Positions 32,166 through 44,185 of a stretch of DNA of 64,000 nt are shown here, in pieces; position 1 is the first letter of the stretch; every line of letters starts with the position of its first letter. The position numbers were made by a program, and so were the translations under genes. The stretch spans positions 1-64,000 of the forward strand of contig JAOUOS010000005.1 in NCBI GenBank assembly GCA_029880285.1, read 5' to 3'. The notes under the pieces are model-generated. The model was not told the origin of the DNA and did not search any database. It saw only the letters and a list, made by a program, of their open reading frames with translations. Origin of the DNA: Spirochaetia bacterium. GTDB lineage: Bacteria > Spirochaetota > Leptospiria > Turneriellales > JAOUOS01.

Positions 32166-32184
32166 AAAAGGCTAAATATTGCAG

Positions 32185-32901
32185 ATGAAAGAAGAATTTG
32201 ACGTTAAAGAAAAAATACTGGCTGCGGCAAAAACAGAATTTGCCGAAAAAGGCTACGCCGGCGCCAGAATGAACGCGATAGCCGAAAAAGCCGCCGTCAA
32301 TAAAGCCATGCTTCATTATTACTTTAACAGCAAAGAAAACTTATACTCATTTATGCTTCAAACATTATTTAAGACAGATACAAAAATAAAAGAAAACGAA
32401 TTTTTAAGCAATATTAAAGAAAAACTTTCAGAATGGGAAAAGTTATATATTGCCGTCTTTTTCATGATAAATGTTTATATGGAAGTCATAGATCCAGAAC
32501 TTCATCGTATAATGGCATGGGAAATGGCCGAAGGCCGCAAAAGATTTTCAAAATTCGCTAAAAACTTTTTAATTCCCCGGCTTGAAGTTATGGAAAGCTG
32601 CATTCAAAGGGGAGTAAAAAACGGAGAATTTAAAACTTCGAATTCTATATTAGTGGTTATTGATATTATATCTCTTATACTATTTTATACCATGAATAAA
32701 CCTCTTTATGAAAACACAAAATTATACAATAAATTATACGGCAAAGATTCCAAAACTACGTTATTAAACTTTATAACAGATCATTTTGGTAAAGCCTTAT
32801 CTATCAAAGAAAATAGCAGCTTTAGTATTTCTAAAGACCTTTTGCATAGTCTGCAAGACGTTCTTAAACAAATACAAAAAAAGGGGGATGAAGCAAAATG
32901 A
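32185..32901 (+). CDS. TetR-family transcriptional regulator of the efflux operon
   Basis: 238 residues from ATG 32185 (a TTG at 32179 would add two). N-terminal helix-turn-helix (KEKILAAAKTEFAEKGYAGARMNAIAEKAAVNKAMLHYYFNSKENLYS) is a textbook TetR DNA-binding domain. The C-terminal ligand domain is divergent, with a long C-terminal tail. The stop overlaps the next gene's ATG by 4 bp, so repressor and outer-membrane factor are co-translated, and a compound palindrome lies immediately upstream. Expected to repress its own operon until a pump substrate binds. Confidence 0.92.
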   Translation: MKEEFDVKEKILAAAKTEFAEKGYAGARMNAIAEKAAVNKAMLHYYFNSKENLYSFMLQTLFKTDTKIKENEFLSNIKEKLSEWEKLYIAVFFMINVYMEVIDPELHRIMAWEMAEGRKRFSKFAKNFLIPRLEVMESCIQRGVKNGEFKTSNSILVVIDIISLILFYTMNKPLYENTKLYNKLYGKDSKTTLLNFITDHFGKALSIKENSSFSISKDLLHSLQDVLKQIQKKGDEAK

Positions 32902-34448
32902 AAGCTATAAAAATTTTTCTTTACTTTTCCTGTATTTTTTATTTTACTCTTAGCGCTCAAGAATTTTCAACATCTTCTAAAAATGAAGAAACTATAACCG
33001 TCGCCGGATATAAACTAAATTTAAAAGAAGCTTTAAACTTAGTACTAAAGAATAATTTAACCTTAAGATCCGCTAAATATGACGTTATTATGAGTGATAC
33101 CGCTCATGAAGTTTTTCAAAAAAAATATACACCCACAGTAAACGCAGAAACAAGTTACCAATCACAAAAATTACCTGTTTCAGGCAGTACAACATTTTCT
33201 GGTGATGAATTTTATCAATGGCAGGTATCGGCCTCTATTGCGAAATTATTTTCAACGGGTACAATGGTTTCTGCCGGTATTAAAGAAGTTCTTGCCGATT
33301 CAAACGATCCCGAATTTGGTATGCCCGGCACCGGGTTTTATAAACCAGCTGACCCTGCTTTACATAAACCGTCTCTTTTTATAACTGTTCAGCAGGAACT
33401 TTTAAAAAATTCTTTTGGTTATTCTGATCAAAAAATGGCTGAAATTTTATATAACCGCTCAAAAATTCAAAGGGAAGCTTTAATTAATCAGCTATCTGCT
33501 TTGGTAGTAAGCGCTCTAATTGACTATTGGCAGGTTTCTATTCAAAAATCGGCGCTTGAAAATGCTGAAAATCAATACAACTCTACAAAAAACATACGTG
33601 ATATAATTGCTAAAAATATAAAACTTGGCCTTGCTGAAAAGTTTGATTTAAACCAATATAATTCATTAACCGCCTCTTCTGAAAGCAGGGTTTTTTTAGC
33701 GCGTCAACAGCTAAAAGAAGCAGAAAGAAAACTTTTAAGAACAATCAATCTGCCGCCTGAAACAAAAATATCGGGCGTTACAAATTTAACAGATGAATTG
33801 CCCCAAAATCTTGATTCAGAAGATACTCTTAAAAAAGCCTTTGAAAAAAGAGTCGATTTTAAAAATTCTCTTTCAACAATTGAAACATCAAAACTTGAAT
33901 TGTCAATGTATGAAAATAACGCCTTGCCTTCTTTAAACGCTTCTTTTTCAGCAACAACGAATGGACAAAATGAAAGTTTCAATACCGCCTTTGGAGATGC
34001 GGCCGCGGCCGAATATCCCGCGTGGCAGGCATCGGTAAAACTTTCGTATCCTATATGGGATAAAGAAATAAAGACTAATTTAAGAAACGCTGAATTAAAA
34101 TTAAAACAAAGTTTAATTAAACATGAAGATCTTCAAAAAGAAATAAGAGACGAAGTACTAAACCGCCTTGAACGTGTAATTTTGCAGCATAAAATTTTAA
34201 TGAAAATAAGAAAAGTAAGAGAAGAAAGTGAAATATACTATACGATTATGGCAAACAGAGCAAAAAGAGGAAGATTTAATTCTGTGGCAGTTAAAAACGC
34301 GTTAGATAGTATCTCTAACGCCAAACAACAGGAACTTGAAACTCTGGTTCAATATAATATCGCTCTTTTACAGTTTGATTTGGCTAGAAATGAAATATTT
34401 GAAAGATATGAAATTAATATTGAGGAACTTCTTGAACAGGTAGAGTAA
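32898..34448 (+). CDS. TolC-family outer-membrane efflux protein
   Basis: 516 residues with signal peptide (MKAIKIFLYFSCIFYFTLSAQ). Two structural repeats of the OEP fold: LNLKEALNLVLKNNLTLRSAKYDV near the N-terminus, then strands and long helical segments, and again ETIETSKLELSMYENNALPSL and NAELKLKQSLIKHEDLQKEIRDEV. Forms the exit duct of a tripartite pump. ATG overlaps the tetR stop by 4 bp; the RND gene follows after 9 nt. Normally an adaptor (membrane fusion) gene is in such an operon; none is here. Confidence 0.9.
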   Translation: MKAIKIFLYFSCIFYFTLSAQEFSTSSKNEETITVAGYKLNLKEALNLVLKNNLTLRSAKYDVIMSDTAHEVFQKKYTPTVNAETSYQSQKLPVSGSTTFSGDEFYQWQVSASIAKLFSTGTMVSAGIKEVLADSNDPEFGMPGTGFYKPADPALHKPSLFITVQQELLKNSFGYSDQKMAEILYNRSKIQREALINQLSALVVSALIDYWQVSIQKSALENAENQYNSTKNIRDIIAKNIKLGLAEKFDLNQYNSLTASSESRVFLARQQLKEAERKLLRTINLPPETKISGVTNLTDELPQNLDSEDTLKKAFEKRVDFKNSLSTIETSKLELSMYENNALPSLNASFSATTNGQNESFNTAFGDAAAAEYPAWQASVKLSYPIWDKEIKTNLRNAELKLKQSLIKHEDLQKEIRDEVLNRLERVILQHKILMKIRKVREESEIYYTIMANRAKRGRFNSVAVKNALDSISNAKQQELETLVQYNIALLQFDLARNEIFERYEINIEELLEQVE

Positions 34449-34457
34449 CAAAGCAAT

Positions 34458-37400
34458 ATGAAAAAACTAATTGAACTTTTTATACATAAAAATGTTTTCG
34501 GCAACATTTTAACCGCGGCTGTTATAGTAATTGGCGTTATTTCTGCTTTTATGATGCAAAGAGAATCTTTTCCCAGAGCCGATTTTGACGTTGTTGTGGT
34601 ACAAACCGCATTTTTAGGCGCCTCTCCTCAAGAGGTAGAAAAGCTGGTAACTATACCTATTGAAAGAGAATTAAAAAGTATAGACGGCGTAAAAGAAACA
34701 GGTTCAACCTCTCTTGACAACAGAAGCGCCATTGTTTTACAGCTTGAACAAAACCTGGAAGATAAAATGAGGGTTATTCAAGACATTAAAGACGGCGTAG
34801 ATAGGGCCAAAAGAGAGTTTTCTGACAATATCTCAGAGCCATTAGTTCTTGAAATATCTTCAAGAAGATTTCCTATTATTGAAATTGTTTTAAACACAAA
34901 ACCAGATTCAAATGAAAATATAACCGAGTTAAAATTAAGACAACTGGCCGACGGATTAATTGATAAAATAGAACAAATAGATGATGTTGCTACTGTAGAT
35001 AAAAGAGGATACCGCGAAAGGGAAATTCAGGTTGAGGTTTTTCCCGATAAACTTTTTGAATATAATGTTTCAGTTGAAGAAATAACACAGGCGCTTTCTT
35101 CCCGAAATTTAAACATGCCCGGCGGCAACGTAATTGAAAAAGGAAAAGAGTACGCCATACGAACTGTAATGGAGTTTAACAGTGTTGAAGAAATTCAAAA
35201 CCAAATAATTCGATTAAACGATTACGGTGGAGCGCTTCGTCTTAAAGATATCGCGACAGTTAAAGATGATTTTGAAAAGAAAAAATATATTGAGAAAGCA
35301 AACGCCAAAGAAGCCATAATACTAACGGTACTAAAAAATGAAAACGGCGACGCTATTGATTTGGTAGATTCCGTTTTTGAAAAAATTGAAGAATTTAAAA
35401 AAGAAGGCCCTCAAAATCTTGAAATTTCTACCATGAACGATATGTCTTTTTTTATAAAAAGACGGCTTACCGTTCTTCAAGGGAACATACTTCTTGGTAT
35501 TATAATGGTTTTAATTTCTCTTTTTTTCTTTTTAGGCTGGCGGGTTTCAATCATGGTAGCTATAGGTATACCTTTCTCTTTTGCGGCAACATTAATGGTG
35601 ATGAACTACTTGGGCATAAGCATTAACTTAATAAGTATGTTTGGTCTAATTATTGTATCTGGTATGATTGTAGATGACGCTATAGTCGTAGGAGAAAACG
35701 TATACAGGCATATCGAGAGAGGTGAAAAACCGTTAAAAGCGGCTATTATCGGATCTTCAGAAATGGTAGCTCCCGTAACGGCTGCCATAGCAACTACCAT
35801 AATAGCGTTTATGCCCATGATGTTTATGGGCGGCATGATGGGTAAATTTGTATGGGTATTACCCGCAGCAATTATTATAGCTCTTTTAGCTTCTTTGTTT
35901 GAAAGTTTTTTTATTCTTCCCTCTCATATTGTAGATATAACTAAAAATTCTCCGAAAGATAAAATTCTAAAAGATAAAGATTCCTTTGAATATAAATTTT
36001 TCAAAAAACTTCAAAACAAATATCGAAAAACCCTAGAATGGTCATTAAACTATCGTTATCTTGTAGTGATAAGTATTTTCTTTATTTTTTTGGGTTCTGT
36101 TTTGCTTGTAAAAGAAACAGGTTTTATTTTATTCCCCAAGGGCGGTGTTGAAGCATTTCATTTAAAAGTAGAGGGCCCGCAGGGAATAAGTCTAGATGAA
36201 ATGAACAAAAGAATAGCCCCTATTGAAAAAGCCGTCTTAGATTTACCCGCGACAAAACCTGATAACGAACTTGAAAATATGGCGCTAAGAGTGGGCATTC
36301 ATCAAGAAAGGCCAAATGACCCTTTTACTAAAAGAGGTAATAACTACGCCCAGATCAATGTTTATTTAACGCCTGAAACTGAAAGAAGAAGAAAAGCCGC
36401 TGAGATTATAGCCTACCTTAAAGGCAAAATAGACTATGAAGTACCCATTTTATATACAGGAAAAACATCAGACAATAAAATTCTTGAATTAACCAACAGG
36501 CCAGAAGCAAAATTATTTTCAGCAGAAAATCTTTCAAAGCCTGAAAATATAATACCTATCAACAATGATTTTTTAATAGGCGGCGGTCTATTAGATGATA
36601 AAAATACTTTAATTGTCTATACCGGCAAAAATGATCTTATAACTATCGATTTAAACAAGTCAAAAATTACTGATAATAAAATTATTGAACTTAAAAGATA
36701 TGATTCTCCGGTAAAGTTTGTTTTCGATTCAAAAACAAACAACGGAATTCTTGTTACCGAACTGGGTTTTTTATACCAGATAAATGTTAAATCGGGAACA
36801 TACAAAGAAATTGAAAAATATAAAACCAATATTACTTCTATAAACCTTTTGCCTGAGAACCGGGGATTTTTTTTAACAACGGATAACGGATACCTTGAAA
36901 TATTTAAATTTGAAAATGGCTACAAAAAAGAAACAAGCATACATGAATCTCCCGCAATAAAAGGCAAAGGTGAAAGTATGAATATCGACTTTACCAGTAA
37001 AATGTCTCTTAGCAGAATTGAATACGCCGCATTATCAAACGATCAAAATCATATTTACATCTGCGGGTTTGACGGATTTATTTATAAATACAATTTAAAT
37101 AGTAATAAAATAATCGAAGTTTATGCTATAAATTCAAATTCTATTTTTTGGGTAAAACAAGACCCCCAAAACTTAGATATTTTATGGATAAGTCAAAATA
37201 AAAAATTCTTTTCTTATAACACAAAAGAAAAGAAAATTAAAAAAGAATTTGAAATTGAAGGTAATATTCAAACATATATAAGTTCAGATAACGCAACTGA
37301 CTGGTACGCTTTGGGCAGCCGTAAATCTATTGTAAAAATAAAAAGCGGCTTAAAAGAATCTGTTTCAATTATACAAAAAGGCGAAACATATCTTGAAAAA

Positions 37401-38597
37401 ATAGAATTCAAACAGGCACATGGCGGTCCGCCTGTTGGTCTTCCTGTTTCTATTGAAATAAGAGGCGATGAATTTGATACATTAAGAGAAATCTCTCAAA
37501 TAGTTAAAGAAAAACTTAGAGCAATAGACGGTGTTTACGACATCAGAGACAACTGGGAAGAAGGTAAAGAAGAATTTCATGTACAAATTAATGAAGAAAT
37601 TGCCGCTCTAGCCGGTGTTTCTGTAATGCAAATTGCCTCAACCGTACAAGCGGCTTTTGAAGGCAGGGTGGCAACCTCTATAAAAAGAGCTGAAGAAGAA
37701 ATAGATATTAGAGTTATGTTTTCTGAAGATCTTCGGGAAAAACTTTCATCTTTACGAGACGTAAAAATTAGAAACCGGATGGGCAATCTGGTACCAATAA
37801 CAGAGCTTGCTTCATTTAAAAAATATCCGGGTGTTTCTTTAATTACTCATGTAGATAACAAAAGAACTATTTACGTAAAGGCCAATATTGACGAAAGAAG
37901 AAATGAATCGGTAAAGGTAAATACCGATTTAATGGACATGATGACTCCTGTAATGATAAAATATCCGGGATACAATTTAGTAACAGGCGGCGAAATGATG
38001 GATACCAAAGAATCAATGGAAAATTTGGGCAGGGCCGCGATTTTTGCCATTGCGGGTATTGGCATTATATTGGTTCTTCTTTTTGGCAACTTAAGACATT
38101 TTCGTGTTATCATGAGCGCTATTCCGCTTGGATTCATTGGTGTATCAGTTGCTTTCTTTTTACATAAAAAACTACATATAATGCCCGATCTGGTTTTTGG
38201 ATTTATTGCCACAATGGGAATAGTGGGACTAACCGGTGTTGTGGTTAACGATTCTATTGTTTTTGTAGACTTTATTAATAAACTAAGAAAAGCCGGACTA
38301 AACCGGCACGATGCCATAGTAGGCGCGGGACTTCACCGTCTTAGACCTGTTATATTAACAACAGTTACAACAGTTGTGGGCCTTTTGCCTACGGCCTATG
38401 GCTTAGGCGGTGACGATCCGTTTTTAAAACCAATGGCTTTAGCCATGGCATGGGGATTATTTTTCGCGACAATAATAACTCTTATAATTGTACCATCTTT
38501 ATACGCTATATGGGAAGACAGAGGTTTTATATTTCATAACGCCGTACTGGGTTCTATAAAGAAAAAAAGAAAAGGAAAAAAAGATGCCATCCGCTAA
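34458..38597 (+). CDS. RND efflux permease with a ~310-residue propeller-like insertion
   Basis: 1379 residues versus about 1030-1060 for AcrB-type pumps. The N-terminal half is normal: TM1, periplasmic porter/docking region, TM2-6 with GMIVDDAIVVGENVYRHIE, the TM4 proton-relay Asp pair, and the second half resumes with GGPPVGLPVSIEIRGDEFD (from residue 989) and VVNDSIVFVDFINKL in TM10. Between about residues 665 and 975 lies extra sequence with about six blade-like repeats (for example GFLYQINVKSG, NGYLEIFKFENG, DGFIYKYNLNSNK, KKFFSYNTKEKK), resembling a WD40/YVTN-type beta-propeller. The insertion point corresponds to the PC1/PC2 region, close to the substrate entry cleft in AcrB. Shares a transcript with tetR, the TolC-like gene and an RDD gene. 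Confidence 0.93.
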   Translation: MKKLIELFIHKNVFGNILTAAVIVIGVISAFMMQRESFPRADFDVVVVQTAFLGASPQEVEKLVTIPIERELKSIDGVKETGSTSLDNRSAIVLQLEQNLEDKMRVIQDIKDGVDRAKREFSDNISEPLVLEISSRRFPIIEIVLNTKPDSNENITELKLRQLADGLIDKIEQIDDVATVDKRGYREREIQVEVFPDKLFEYNVSVEEITQALSSRNLNMPGGNVIEKGKEYAIRTVMEFNSVEEIQNQIIRLNDYGGALRLKDIATVKDDFEKKKYIEKANAKEAIILTVLKNENGDAIDLVDSVFEKIEEFKKEGPQNLEISTMNDMSFFIKRRLTVLQGNILLGIIMVLISLFFFLGWRVSIMVAIGIPFSFAATLMVMNYLGISINLISMFGLIIVSGMIVDDAIVVGENVYRHIERGEKPLKAAIIGSSEMVAPVTAAIATTIIAFMPMMFMGGMMGKFVWVLPAAIIIALLASLFESFFILPSHIVDITKNSPKDKILKDKDSFEYKFFKKLQNKYRKTLEWSLNYRYLVVISIFFIFLGSVLLVKETGFILFPKGGVEAFHLKVEGPQGISLDEMNKRIAPIEKAVLDLPATKPDNELENMALRVGIHQERPNDPFTKRGNNYAQINVYLTPETERRRKAAEIIAYLKGKIDYEVPILYTGKTSDNKILELTNRPEAKLFSAENLSKPENIIPINNDFLIGGGLLDDKNTLIVYTGKNDLITIDLNKSKITDNKIIELKRYDSPVKFVFDSKTNNGILVTELGFLYQINVKSGTYKEIEKYKTNITSINLLPENRGFFLTTDNGYLEIFKFENGYKKETSIHESPAIKGKGESMNIDFTSKMSLSRIEYAALSNDQNHIYICGFDGFIYKYNLNSNKIIEVYAINSNSIFWVKQDPQNLDILWISQNKKFFSYNTKEKKIKKEFEIEGNIQTYISSDNATDWYALGSRKSIVKIKSGLKESVSIIQKGETYLEKIEFKQAHGGPPVGLPVSIEIRGDEFDTLREISQIVKEKLRAIDGVYDIRDNWEEGKEEFHVQINEEIAALAGVSVMQIASTVQAAFEGRVATSIKRAEEEIDIRVMFSEDLREKLSSLRDVKIRNRMGNLVPITELASFKKYPGVSLITHVDNKRTIYVKANIDERRNESVKVNTDLMDMMTPVMIKYPGYNLVTGGEMMDTKESMENLGRAAIFAIAGIGIILVLLFGNLRHFRVIMSAIPLGFIGVSVAFFLHKKLHIMPDLVFGFIATMGIVGLTGVVVNDSIVFVDFINKLRKAGLNRHDAIVGAGLHRLRPVILTTVTTVVGLLPTAYGLGGDDPFLKPMALAMAWGLFFATIITLIIVPSLYAIWEDRGFIFHNAVLGSIKKKRKGKKDAIR

Positions 38598-39306
38598 GCC
38601 TTCTAAAAAAAATAAAAAAGAAAATCTTCCTAAAGAACTTTCTACTGAAGAAATAATGAAAGAAGCCGAAGAGGCCGAAGAACATTTTCAAGCTGAACAT
38701 CTTCAAAATCTTGATAAAGACGAATTAAAAGAGATTTTATTTATGCTCGAAAATACAGATAAAGAAAAAGAATATGAAATTGTTAAAAATTTTTATGATA
38801 AGAAAAAATCTCCCGCTATCGAAAAAGCAAAACTAGGACACAGAGTATGGAGCTATTACTATGACAACTGGATATTTCGGTCTATATTTTTTTTAACTGC
38901 TCCCGCTATTTTTTTTACCGTAAAAAAATTAACACCAGATATCACAACTAAAAATACAGTTATAGCGATAGCAGGTTATTACGTTTTACTAAAACTAATT
39001 TGGCGTCTTATTTTAGCCGTTAAAGAGTCATCTTTGAGCAAAAAATCGGCAGGCTCTACGTTTATTAGAAAAAAAACAGGAATTGTTGTATTAAATAAAA
39101 ACGGCAAACCGGTAAATACCCTTATATCATTTTTACGAGGTTTGTTTAGAGCATTCCCTTTCAATCTTGTCTGCTTAATTTTTATGGAAATTTCTAAAAA
39201 TGACCGAGGACTTCATGATAGAATATTTGGTACCTATGTTTTAAGATTAAACGAAGAAGTAACCGAAGAAGAAGCCGCTTCATTTATAAAAAGTAATTAT
39301 AAGTAA
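38584..39306 (+). CDS. RDD-family membrane protein
   Basis: 240 residues. Begins inside the RND gene (14-bp overlap). N-terminal 75 residues are highly charged (Lys/Glu) and helical; then an RDD domain with AKLGHRVWSYYYDNW, two or three membrane helices, KTGIVVLNKNGKPVNTLISFLRG and a final RGLHDRIFGTYVLRL, matching the RxxHDxxxGTxVV close of RDD proteins. Some RDD proteins have been tied to cation antiport; here the operon suggests an accessory role to the pump. Role is inference. Confidence 0.85.
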   Translation: MPSAKPSKKNKKENLPKELSTEEIMKEAEEAEEHFQAEHLQNLDKDELKEILFMLENTDKEKEYEIVKNFYDKKKSPAIEKAKLGHRVWSYYYDNWIFRSIFFLTAPAIFFTVKKLTPDITTKNTVIAIAGYYVLLKLIWRLILAVKESSLSKKSAGSTFIRKKTGIVVLNKNGKPVNTLISFLRGLFRAFPFNLVCLIFMEISKNDRGLHDRIFGTYVLRLNEEVTEEEAASFIKSNYK

Positions 39307-40975: not shown

Positions 40976-43900
40976 TTATAAAACAGCTGATGATAAATTT
41001 GTAGAGATACTTTTTATAAGTGTTAGAAAGTCTTCTTCATTTAAAGGGCGGGAAAAAAGGTAACCCTGAATATAATCGCATTTTAAAGACTTTAAGACCT
41101 CTAATTGCTCGCTAGTTTCAACGCCTTCGGCGGTAACTTTTAAATTCATGGCTTTAGCCATACTTATTACAGCCGAAACAATCATTTGATTTTCTTTGTT
41201 TGTCGTAATATTATCAATAAATGATTTATCTATTTTTAAATTATTTACCGGCATATTACTTAAGTTGTTTAAAGATGAATAACCGGTACCAAAATCATCA
41301 ACTGATAATCCAATTTTCATGTTTGAAAATTTACGCAGTATCTCTATATTTTTTATAGAATCTGACATTAAAGAGGTCTCAGTTATTTCAAGATTCATAT
41401 TTTCGGGCCATGCTTTAGTTTGTTCGATAATTGTTTTAAATAATGAAATCAGTTTAAGATTATTTAACTGCCTGGTAGATAAATTTACGCTAACATAAAT
41501 ATCATCTGTATTTTTTATTTCTTGTAATTTTCTTTGTACTTTACACCCTTCTTCAAACGCCCAGTTACCTATTTCTAAAATAGAGTCAGATTTCTCTGCT
41601 ATAGGAATAAAGACAGCCGGGCTTATAAACTCGCCATCTTTTATCCAGCGGGCCAAAAGCTCTACACCAATTACTTTATCTCCATTAATATTAAAAATTG
41701 GTTGAAATCTAGCCTGAAATTCATTATTAATTAAAGCGGTTTTTAAATTATTGGTAATAAATAATTCCTGTTTTGAGGCTTCTTCAAGATCACTGCTAAA
41801 AATACGCCAAATATCTCTTCCTTTCGTTTTAGCTTCATACATGGCCACATCGGCGTTTCTAATTAGCTCATTCGCAAAAATTTTACCGCCTAAGCCAAAC
41901 GCGATTCCCACACTGCCGCTTATATAATGTTCAATATCATTAATTAAAATAGGCTCGTGCAAATTCTTTACAATTCTGGCGGCAATATCAAAAGCTTCCT
42001 GCTTATTATTTATATTCTCGCATAAAATAACGTATTCATCCCCGCCAAATCTTGATACCGTATCACCCGGCCTTACTGTTTTAAGAAGTAATTCCGCCGT
42101 CTTTATTAAAAGTTCATCACCGCTGTCATGACCATAAGAGTCGTTAATTAGCTTAAAGTTATCGAGATCAACAAATAAAACAGCGATTTCTTTTTGACTT
42201 CTTTTTGATCTTTCAAGCGCGTTTGATATTCTATCTTGAATTAAAGCTCTGTTTGGCAAACCAGTAAGAGGATCGTGTGTGGCCTTCCATGTTAATTTTT
42301 CTTCTATTTTTTTCTGTTCGGTTAAATCTTTTATTGACGCAATCATAAGCGTTCCGCTTTCCGTTTTAATTTTTGAGATGCCGGCAATAGCGGGAAACTC
42401 AGAACCGTCTTTTTTGTAACCGGCTATTTCACCCCGAACACTCATTCTTTTTTGTTTTTCTTTTGAATAAAAAAACTCTTTTATCTGCATAGTATGTCTT
42501 TCTCTATATCGGGGCGGTATTAGCATATTTAATGAATGACCAAGAAGTTCTTCTTCAAAATAGCCAAATAAGTCACATGTAAAATCGTTTACATACGCGA
42601 TTCTTCCCATTTCATTTATTCCTATTATAGCTATATCGGTTAATGACAATATCTTTTGAGCCGTAACGCCAGCCTTATTTTCTTCTATAGAAGAACTCTC
42701 AACAATAAAAAAATATTCCCGCTTGTTATTTATATCAACAATATTTTCAAGGCTGCACTGGTATTTATTTTTAGTATAAAATGATTCACAAATAAATTTT
42801 CGCGGATTTTTATCTACTGGTAATTTTTCAAGTATAACTTCATCAACACTAAAAAAATCAGTTATTTTATTGCGATTTATATTAAAAGAATCGTCATAAA
42901 AAATAATATTCTTAGCGCTTTCATTCATGTTAATAATCTTAAAATTACCATCTAAAATAAATAAGGCGGGTATAATATTTTCAGGCTTTTTATTTATATC
43001 TATATGATATATTTTGTTATTTATTTTATGGGTATTGTCTTTAACTATTTCTGAATTTGTTTTTATAGATCTATATCTATCTGGAATTACAGGCTCAATT
43101 AATCCAAAATTTTCAATGATAGTAAAAGAACCATTGTCTTCACATCGCGATAAATATGAATTTACAAAAGCATGGTGTGTTTTGGCGTCCATCATTACCT
43201 TGCCCTGAGGTCCCAAAACCTCTACTTCTTCTAATTCTTTTATGAGATGTTCTGCCTTGGTTGAATTCGCTTTTTTAACGGCTTCTGCAAATGCTTTTAC
43301 GCAAATATACGTTCCCTCGCCAAAATTAGTAAGAACTCCATTGCCTTTTGGCCAAATACCTGATACCCCCTCATATTTTTTTAAACGGGACATCAGCTTT
43401 TTATTTTCTTTTGTTTGTACATTCATAAAATATGTATTACTGGAATACAATCCGCTTCTAATTTTTGCTGATAACGAACCTACCATCGCTTCATCATAAT
43501 GCCCCATAACTACGGCCATTTTTTCTTTTAAACCTTTTTCAACAAATTTTGTTAATAAGTTTACCTGATCTATACCCGCAAAATAAGGCACAAATACGTC
43601 CGCTCCTGATTTTAAAAGATCATCTAATAAAATATCAATTTTATCGCTGCCAATAGGAAGGTATTCTTCGCCAACAACCTCGCCGCCTATTTTTATAAGA
43701 CTTTTTTTAGCCGCGTCTATAGAACCTTTGGGCCACTCATAATTTGAGCCGGCGAAAAAAAATTTTAAACCAAATTTTTCGGCCATGTAAGGAATCATCT
43801 TATCTATCTGCTGGTTTGGCAAAGCCGCAAAATGAAAAAAGTACTTATTTGAAATACTGCCTTCATAAAAAGAAAAATTAAGCAGGGGTATTTTTTTAGG

Positions 43901-44185
43901 TTTAGCAACCTGATTAGCCACCGCTATCCGTGAATTAGAAAGCAAATTACCTATAATAGATACGCACTTTTCTTTTTCAATTAGATTTTTAGCCGCGGGT
44001 ACCGCTGTTTCTGGTAAACTGCCGTCATCATATATTATAAGTTCTAATTTTTTACCGAGCAGTCCGCCTGATTCATTTACCTCGCTTACGGCAATTTGAG
44101 CCGCCCTTGAAATTTCTTCACCATATAAAGAAACCAAACCGGTAAGAGGCGACAGCAGCCCTAAGCGTATTGTATCATTTTTCAT
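40976..44185 (-). CDS. Cytoplasmic ligand-binding / PAS / GGDEF / EAL signalling protein
   Basis: 1069 residues with no signal peptide or membrane helix; an in-frame stop upstream excludes a missed signal. Residues 5-370 are a type I periplasmic-binding fold of the amide/branched-chain amino-acid class (RLGLLSPLTGLVSLYGEEI, VEVLGPQGKVMMDAKTHHA), similar to cytosolic AmiC. Two PAS-like regions follow (about 400-490 and 510-630), then a GGDEF domain with a GGDEY site near residue 713, then an EAL domain (ELL in place of EAL near 840) that keeps DDFGTGYSSL, LKIDKSFI and TAEGVET. Both activities could be live, so a small molecule may set cyclic-di-GMP in the cytosol. Isolated gene. Confidence 0.92.
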   Translation of the reverse strand: MKNDTIRLGLLSPLTGLVSLYGEEISRAAQIAVSEVNESGGLLGKKLELIIYDDGSLPETAVPAAKNLIEKEKCVSIIGNLLSNSRIAVANQVAKPKKIPLLNFSFYEGSISNKYFFHFAALPNQQIDKMIPYMAEKFGLKFFFAGSNYEWPKGSIDAAKKSLIKIGGEVVGEEYLPIGSDKIDILLDDLLKSGADVFVPYFAGIDQVNLLTKFVEKGLKEKMAVVMGHYDEAMVGSLSAKIRSGLYSSNTYFMNVQTKENKKLMSRLKKYEGVSGIWPKGNGVLTNFGEGTYICVKAFAEAVKKANSTKAEHLIKELEEVEVLGPQGKVMMDAKTHHAFVNSYLSRCEDNGSFTIIENFGLIEPVIPDRYRSIKTNSEIVKDNTHKINNKIYHIDINKKPENIIPALFILDGNFKIINMNESAKNIIFYDDSFNINRNKITDFFSVDEVILEKLPVDKNPRKFICESFYTKNKYQCSLENIVDINNKREYFFIVESSSIEENKAGVTAQKILSLTDIAIIGINEMGRIAYVNDFTCDLFGYFEEELLGHSLNMLIPPRYRERHTMQIKEFFYSKEKQKRMSVRGEIAGYKKDGSEFPAIAGISKIKTESGTLMIASIKDLTEQKKIEEKLTWKATHDPLTGLPNRALIQDRISNALERSKRSQKEIAVLFVDLDNFKLINDSYGHDSGDELLIKTAELLLKTVRPGDTVSRFGGDEYVILCENINNKQEAFDIAARIVKNLHEPILINDIEHYISGSVGIAFGLGGKIFANELIRNADVAMYEAKTKGRDIWRIFSSDLEEASKQELFITNNLKTALINNEFQARFQPIFNINGDKVIGVELLARWIKDGEFISPAVFIPIAEKSDSILEIGNWAFEEGCKVQRKLQEIKNTDDIYVSVNLSTRQLNNLKLISLFKTIIEQTKAWPENMNLEITETSLMSDSIKNIEILRKFSNMKIGLSVDDFGTGYSSLNNLSNMPVNNLKIDKSFIDNITTNKENQMIVSAVISMAKAMNLKVTAEGVETSEQLEVLKSLKCDYIQGYLFSRPLNEEDFLTLIKSISTNLSSAVL

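Follow-up and report, generated by a model that had tools for sequence, protein, structure and literature searches.

A predicted seven-bladed beta-propeller in the PC1 porter subdomain of an RND permease from one order of Leptospirae

The gene at positions 34458..38597 (forward strand) of the window, that is, of the whole 64,000-nucleotide stretch of a Spirochaetia bacterium analyzed here (contig JAOUOS010000005.1), raises the question of what about 310 additional residues are doing in an RND permease. The open reading frame is intact (ATG start, no internal stops) and encodes 1379 residues that match the Pfam model ACR_tran (5.3e-186) in two pieces, residues 5-657 corresponding to model positions 2-643 and nucleotides 37353-38510 to model positions 641-1019. 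The pieces meet with no model positions lost; thus nothing is missing from the RND permease, and the surplus amounts to about 310 residues. An earlier sequence-only reading had placed this surplus between residues 665 and 975, and both the two-piece match and the alignment agree with it. ACR_tran homology spans both halves of the permease, comprising transmembrane helices TM1-6 with PN and TM7-12 with PC. In alignment to AcrB the TM4 proton-relay aspartates are D406-D407 (35673..35678, forward strand; AcrB D407/D408), which are invariant in 12 relatives, and in the TM10-TM11 relay region (38247..38360, forward strand) the TM10 lysine K940 of AcrB is replaced by N1264, with the counterparts of R971 (R1294) and T978 (T1301) retained. 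On sequence the protein is classed as an HAE-1-type RND permease, the TM10 lysine difference being stated with the assignment. It resembles the HAE-1 permeases AcrB, MexK and MdtB (the last two being the closest solved chains) in its ACR_tran match, full length except for the insert, and in its TM4 aspartate pair, but differs from them in that PC1 is broken by a predicted propeller, N1264 stands for K940, and no adaptor gene is adjacent. The NCBIfam models SecDF, SecD and SecF did not identify it as SecDF (36.3 bits against a cut-off of 721).

The insert (residues ~663-975; 36444..37382, forward strand) is predicted to form a complete seven-bladed WD40-like beta-propeller of about 310 residues. 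The AlphaFold2 model of residues 655-992, built from an alignment of three sequences (the window protein and two homologues), has a mean per-residue confidence (pLDDT) of 74.9 and a predicted TM-score (pTM) of 0.75 and contains 28 strands, or seven blades of four. In a Foldseek search of the PDB the matches are seven-bladed propellers of the WD40 type (E ~1e-13, TM-scores 0.6-0.67). These two results bear out the proposal, made earlier from the letters alone, that the insert is a propeller, with seven blades in the predicted fold in place of the roughly six repeats counted then. Blades 4 and 5 are separated by a long flexible loop (residues 825-856; 36930..37025, forward strand) with pLDDT of 30-44 over most of its length. 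WD40-type propellers such as WDR5, RACK1, Gbeta and the bacterial WD40 protein 5yzv thus share the predicted fold, but identity to them is ~10%, and the window propeller lies within a periplasmic loop of a transporter. Against Pfam the best match of the window insert alone is Beta-prop_ACSF4 (25.9 bits, 7.8e-6; curated cut-off 133); several WD40-type models match weakly and partially, far under their curated cut-offs, and no Pfam model of a WD40 or other propeller family reaches its own. A profile of seven inserts gives weak partial matches to propeller sensors and WD40 proteins. The internal repeat is also weak, its best autocorrelation shift (41) being equalled by 5% of shuffles, and internal repetition was rejected as proof of a propeller on its own; identification therefore rests on fold prediction together with distant profile matches.

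The point of insertion was located by alignment and by model secondary structure. The first part of PC1 (36144..36431, forward strand) comprises beta1 (563-573), alpha1 (579-594), beta2 (605-615), beta3 (628-637) and alpha2 (647-658), and strand beta4 resumes, with the GGPPVG block, at residues 979-994 (37392..37439, forward strand; strand 981-989 in the model). In a model of residues 1-1195 (pTM 0.51), from which secondary structure alone was taken, the order of elements is alpha2 647-658, propeller 664-973 and beta4 981-989, joined by short linkers (about 5 and about 7 residues long). When insert-free relatives are aligned, the splice falls between '..IIAYLKGKI' and 'LEKIEFKQAHGGPPVG', and from anchor A647 to anchor G990 there are 344 residues in the window protein versus 29 in proteobacterial relatives. 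E980, K981, E983 and Q986, just beyond the splice, are invariant across the propeller clade. By the model the splice is the alpha2-beta4 turn of the PC1 porter subdomain, and since PC1 lines the PC1/PC2 cleft, the earlier placement of the insert beside that cleft holds at the level of the subdomain. The turn itself should be membrane-distal, facing the funnel and adaptor belt and not squarely in the cleft mouth, because the subdomain has a ferredoxin-type topology in which beta1 starts right after TM7. Where it deals with domain insertion, a review of these modules (PMC8277102) describes PN1 and PC1 as uninterrupted in pumps of the HAE-1 and HME types, counts few insertion points and names SecDF as the sole case of a domain after alpha2; the legend of figure 25 puts the SecDF head after alpha2, whereas the running text puts it between beta2 and beta3. 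An analogy with SecDF, an RND superfamily member that by the figure has a large periplasmic head in a porter-type module after alpha2, is uncertain because of this disagreement, and the two differ in that SecDF has another head in another module whereas the window protein is a full-length HAE-1 permease.

The insert occurs at the identical point in eight genomes of one order of Leptospirae, namely the window genome and seven relatives (G001, G002, where the gene is split on two contigs, G003, G005, G009, G011 and G014), in which propeller pumps have 1352-1375 residues where complete. It recurs in independent assemblies, among them contigs that separate projects have made public (L015, L016). 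Seven genomes of a single genus (g7) and three more from the order gave no match, and an insert profile run on 296 Spirochaetota genomes was matched near full length in the same eight alone, other spirochaetes giving only partial, weak matches in frames of 401-744 residues. Copying from a propeller of the same genome was rejected, as no second match was found in the window genome. RND relatives passing a strict threshold are present in 63 of those Spirochaetota genomes and in 69/398 Pseudomonadota genomes, and the listed frames outside the propeller clade are mostly of about 1030-1190 residues. Between the anchors lie ~330-344 residues in propeller pumps, 29-30 in the other Spirochaetota and the Pseudomonadota examined, and ~31-138 in orthologues on the Leptospira/Leptonema side. 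One orthologue of 1332 residues (L059:6493-10491, in G040:C18) has ~110 extra residues at the PC1 turn and more in its N-terminal half. Two further sets of long frames were rejected as propeller pumps: a proteobacterial frame of 1304 residues is a normal 1028-residue pump, and frames of 1429-1436 residues are RND-TolC fusions. The fusions (ACR_tran plus OEP, ~1430 residues; L095:5356-9666 in G003:C26, L096:4364-8653 in G014:C151, and also G009:C295), whose C-terminal OEP was established by Pfam for two of the copies, those of G003 and G014, resemble the propeller pumps in unusual length and in coming from the same order, but what is added is a C-terminal TolC-type domain and not a propeller in PC1.

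In a maximum-likelihood tree restricted to the RND part, the propeller pumps form one clade (support 100/100), and the Leptospira/Leptonema orthologues are its sister group (97/100); the tree includes unreliable rows (fragment L035 and the long branches AcrB and G040C9). Because there is one clade and the insert is restricted to eight genomes, a single gain of the propeller, in the stem of one Leptospirae order, is most likely. For the closest pair (G003/G009) the ratio of nonsynonymous to synonymous substitution (dN/dS) is 0.127 in the insert versus 0.075 in the rest, which points to purifying selection on an insert that is faster-changing yet constrained. Within the predicted propeller, conservation is concentrated in the BC (0.39) and DA (0.29) loops, which form the face bearing both linkers, versus 0.09-0.10 in the AB and CD loops.

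From this well-supported architecture we infer, tentatively and with confidence a little short of even, that the propeller provides a fixed platform on PC1 to which a partner or cargo binds, and that pumping stays RND-like. In AcrB, PC1 is static through the cycle and, with DC, is contacted by the membrane-proximal domain of AcrA (PMC13095208); a propeller on PC1 is for this reason best read as a binding platform. Close to the CH2 entry, AcrA has a residue that alters substrate access and the handling of channel 1 and channel 2 substrates (PMC8934357). The proton-driven HAE-1-type core would pump in the RND manner, and the two short linkers would hold the propeller rigidly on PC1, so placing three propellers per trimer as a fixed peripheral platform at the edge of the porter and funnel. 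The platform would bind a protein partner, the first candidate being the product of the next gene or a protein brought by it, and failing these TolC or a periplasmic cargo carrier; alternatively it would bind cargo next to the cleft. The propeller would thereby do, in chain, part of the job of an adaptor's membrane-proximal domain.

That next gene (38584..39306, forward strand; 14-base overlap with the RND gene) encodes an RDD-family membrane protein of 240 residues (Pfam RDD, 4.8e-08). A homologue lies directly downstream of the RND gene in all eight propeller genomes and was detected, by a single-sequence homology search, in none of 12 other genomes, ten of them with an insert-free orthologue. 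Among RDD proteins, SppI is a membrane partner and inhibitor of the membrane protease SppA (PMC7568657), and another is reported as a Na+/H+ antiporter (PMC5996927). As evidence of partnership the linkage of RDD gene and propeller is suggestive but not proof, because it represents one phylogenetic event or few.

Several points weigh against the binding-platform reading. The RDD linkage could be a single co-gain in one clade and not many independent observations, and the RDD search used one query, so that remote RDD proteins elsewhere could escape it. Identity between the window protein and that of G001 is 39% in the insert versus 74% in the rest, a fast divergence unlike that of a strictly conserved interface, and conservation of the BC turn (a 'DG' turn) may be purely structural. 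The insert model was built from three sequences only, the model that places the propeller reaches a pTM of only 0.51, and the TolC gene is not adjacent in G005 and G014.

A possible but rather unlikely alternative, raised already in the sequence-only reading, is that the propeller captures substrate or gates its entry, overhanging the PC1/PC2 cleft and either binding a periplasmic peptide, lipid or glycan or opening and closing the entrance. By alignment the insert immediately precedes PC1 beta4, the AcrB counterpart of which carries F664, F666 and L668, which we take to be access-pocket residues; moreover, the flexible 32-residue loop is on the linker-bearing face. The RND relative SecDF has a substrate-engaging P1 head, located after alpha2 according to the figure in PMC8277102. 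However, the alpha2-beta4 turn is membrane-distal by topology and lies outside the cleft mouth, the AB and CD loops are poorly conserved, no catalytic or ligand signature was seen in the insert, and the propellers matched in the PDB are mostly protein-binding WD40s.

It is improbable that the propeller is a tolerated decoration of little or no function, acquired at a permissive and expanding turn. The varying extensions of the sister clade at the same turn comport with such a history, as do the rapid divergence and AT-richness of the insert (28% GC versus 36%), but the dN/dS of the insert, its retention at full length in every orthologue of the propeller clade, the conserved BC and DA loops and the linkage to the RDD gene all speak against it.

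Whether the propeller stands in for an adaptor depends on the remaining genes of the cluster. Its first gene (32179..32901, forward strand) encodes a TetR-family regulator of 240 residues (Pfam TetR_N, 4.9e-14), overlapped by four bases by the gene for a TolC-family outer-membrane channel of 516 residues (32898..34448, forward strand; Pfam OEP, 8.5e-29), and the order TetR, TolC family, RND, RDD is compact, all genes overlapping or lying no more than 10 bases apart. G001, G003 and G009 keep this order, as does G002, where the genes are spread over two contigs; homologues in matching position were found for TetR in G001, G003, G014 and G002 and for TolC (47-69% identical) in G001, G003, G009 and G002. 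The G014 cluster lacks TolC, that of G005 lacks both upstream genes, and the G011 contig begins at the RND gene. No adaptor (MFP) gene is present in the window cluster or in those of the propeller relatives, and the possibility that the TolC gene or another part of the cluster conceals an adaptor was rejected, as Pfam gives OEP only. The sole TIGR01730 adaptor of the window genome (92% complete) is on another contig beside another RND gene, assigned from sequence context to the CusA/CzcA type, and G005 (99% complete) and G009 (98%) have no TIGR01730 adaptor above the curated cut-off.

Insert-free orthologues (32-35% identical at full length in proteobacteria, 40-53% by segment in spirochaetes) have 29-30 or ~31-138 residues at the site and no detected RDD homologue, but they too are often encoded beside TolC without an adaptor: in Gamma- and Zetaproteobacteria and the spirochaete G158 they occur in (TetR-)TolC-RND operons lacking an adaptor gene. 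On the Leptospira side, BLAST with a few query sequences found the neighbours to include no homologue of TolC, RDD or an adaptor. Since the insert-free operons also lack an adaptor gene, adaptor absence is, as judged from gene content, a trait of the wider clade that is older than the propeller, and insertion of the propeller was rejected as the cause of adaptor loss. In this adaptor-less clade the pumps may rely on a shared adaptor, or on none at all. Adaptor-free TolC-RND or TetR-TolC-RND operons were noted for the Pseudomonadota and Spirochaetota permeases L019, L021, L022, L023, L025, L098 and L104. The other ordinary HAE-1 RND gene of the window genome (L092:6902-10003; G000:C56:140925) stands alone, with no adaptor or TolC neighbour apparent on inspection of open reading frames. 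Also in the window is a gene (40976-44185, reverse strand) for a 1069-residue protein with Peripla_BP_6 (residues 5-352) followed by PAS, GGDEF and EAL; Peripla_BP_6 starts at the very N-terminus, and no obvious signal peptide was seen.

A self-contained, adaptor-free RND exporter, in which a collar of PC1 propellers and the RDD protein would take over the docking and substrate vetting left to a periplasmic adaptor in characterised HAE-1 pumps, is an unlikely extension of the platform idea. Still less do we expect the propeller to substitute for the adaptor by linking pump and TolC directly. The cluster has no adaptor gene, the genome's sole TIGR01730 adaptor adjoins another RND (G005 and G009 having none over the cut-off), and adaptors normally dock on PC1/DC and the funnel; but adaptor-less TolC-RND operons also encode orthologues that lack the insert, in Pseudomonadota as well as another spirochaete, so that the propeller is not what permits such operons, G005 and G014 retain the propeller although TolC is not encoded next to it, and a propeller has no helical hairpin with which to reach TolC. 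The suggestion of the sequence-only reading that the insert acts in place of an adaptor is weakened by these operons and by the other insert-free orthologues that stand alone. That the insert is not real, or does not fold as a propeller, is very improbable: the Pfam matches far under their cut-offs and the three-sequence model leave some room for it, but eight genomes and the separate public contigs rule out an assembly artefact, and the 28-strand model with its Foldseek matches argues for the fold.

In the literature searched no relevant description of an RND pump with a propeller was found, in keeping with the sequence-only reading, which knew of none; the parts are known individually, and the combination is new to that literature. 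Few transporters have been studied as much as RND pumps, whose porter modules are believed to take insertions at few points only; a selected-for beta-propeller in PC1 would add one insertion point and one domain type to the RND list. The differing length of one turn among orthologues (29-30, ~31-138 and ~340 residues) constitutes a natural experiment on the occupancy of PC1, and the adaptor-less TolC-RND clade, with or without the propeller, makes RND function without a classical adaptor testable.

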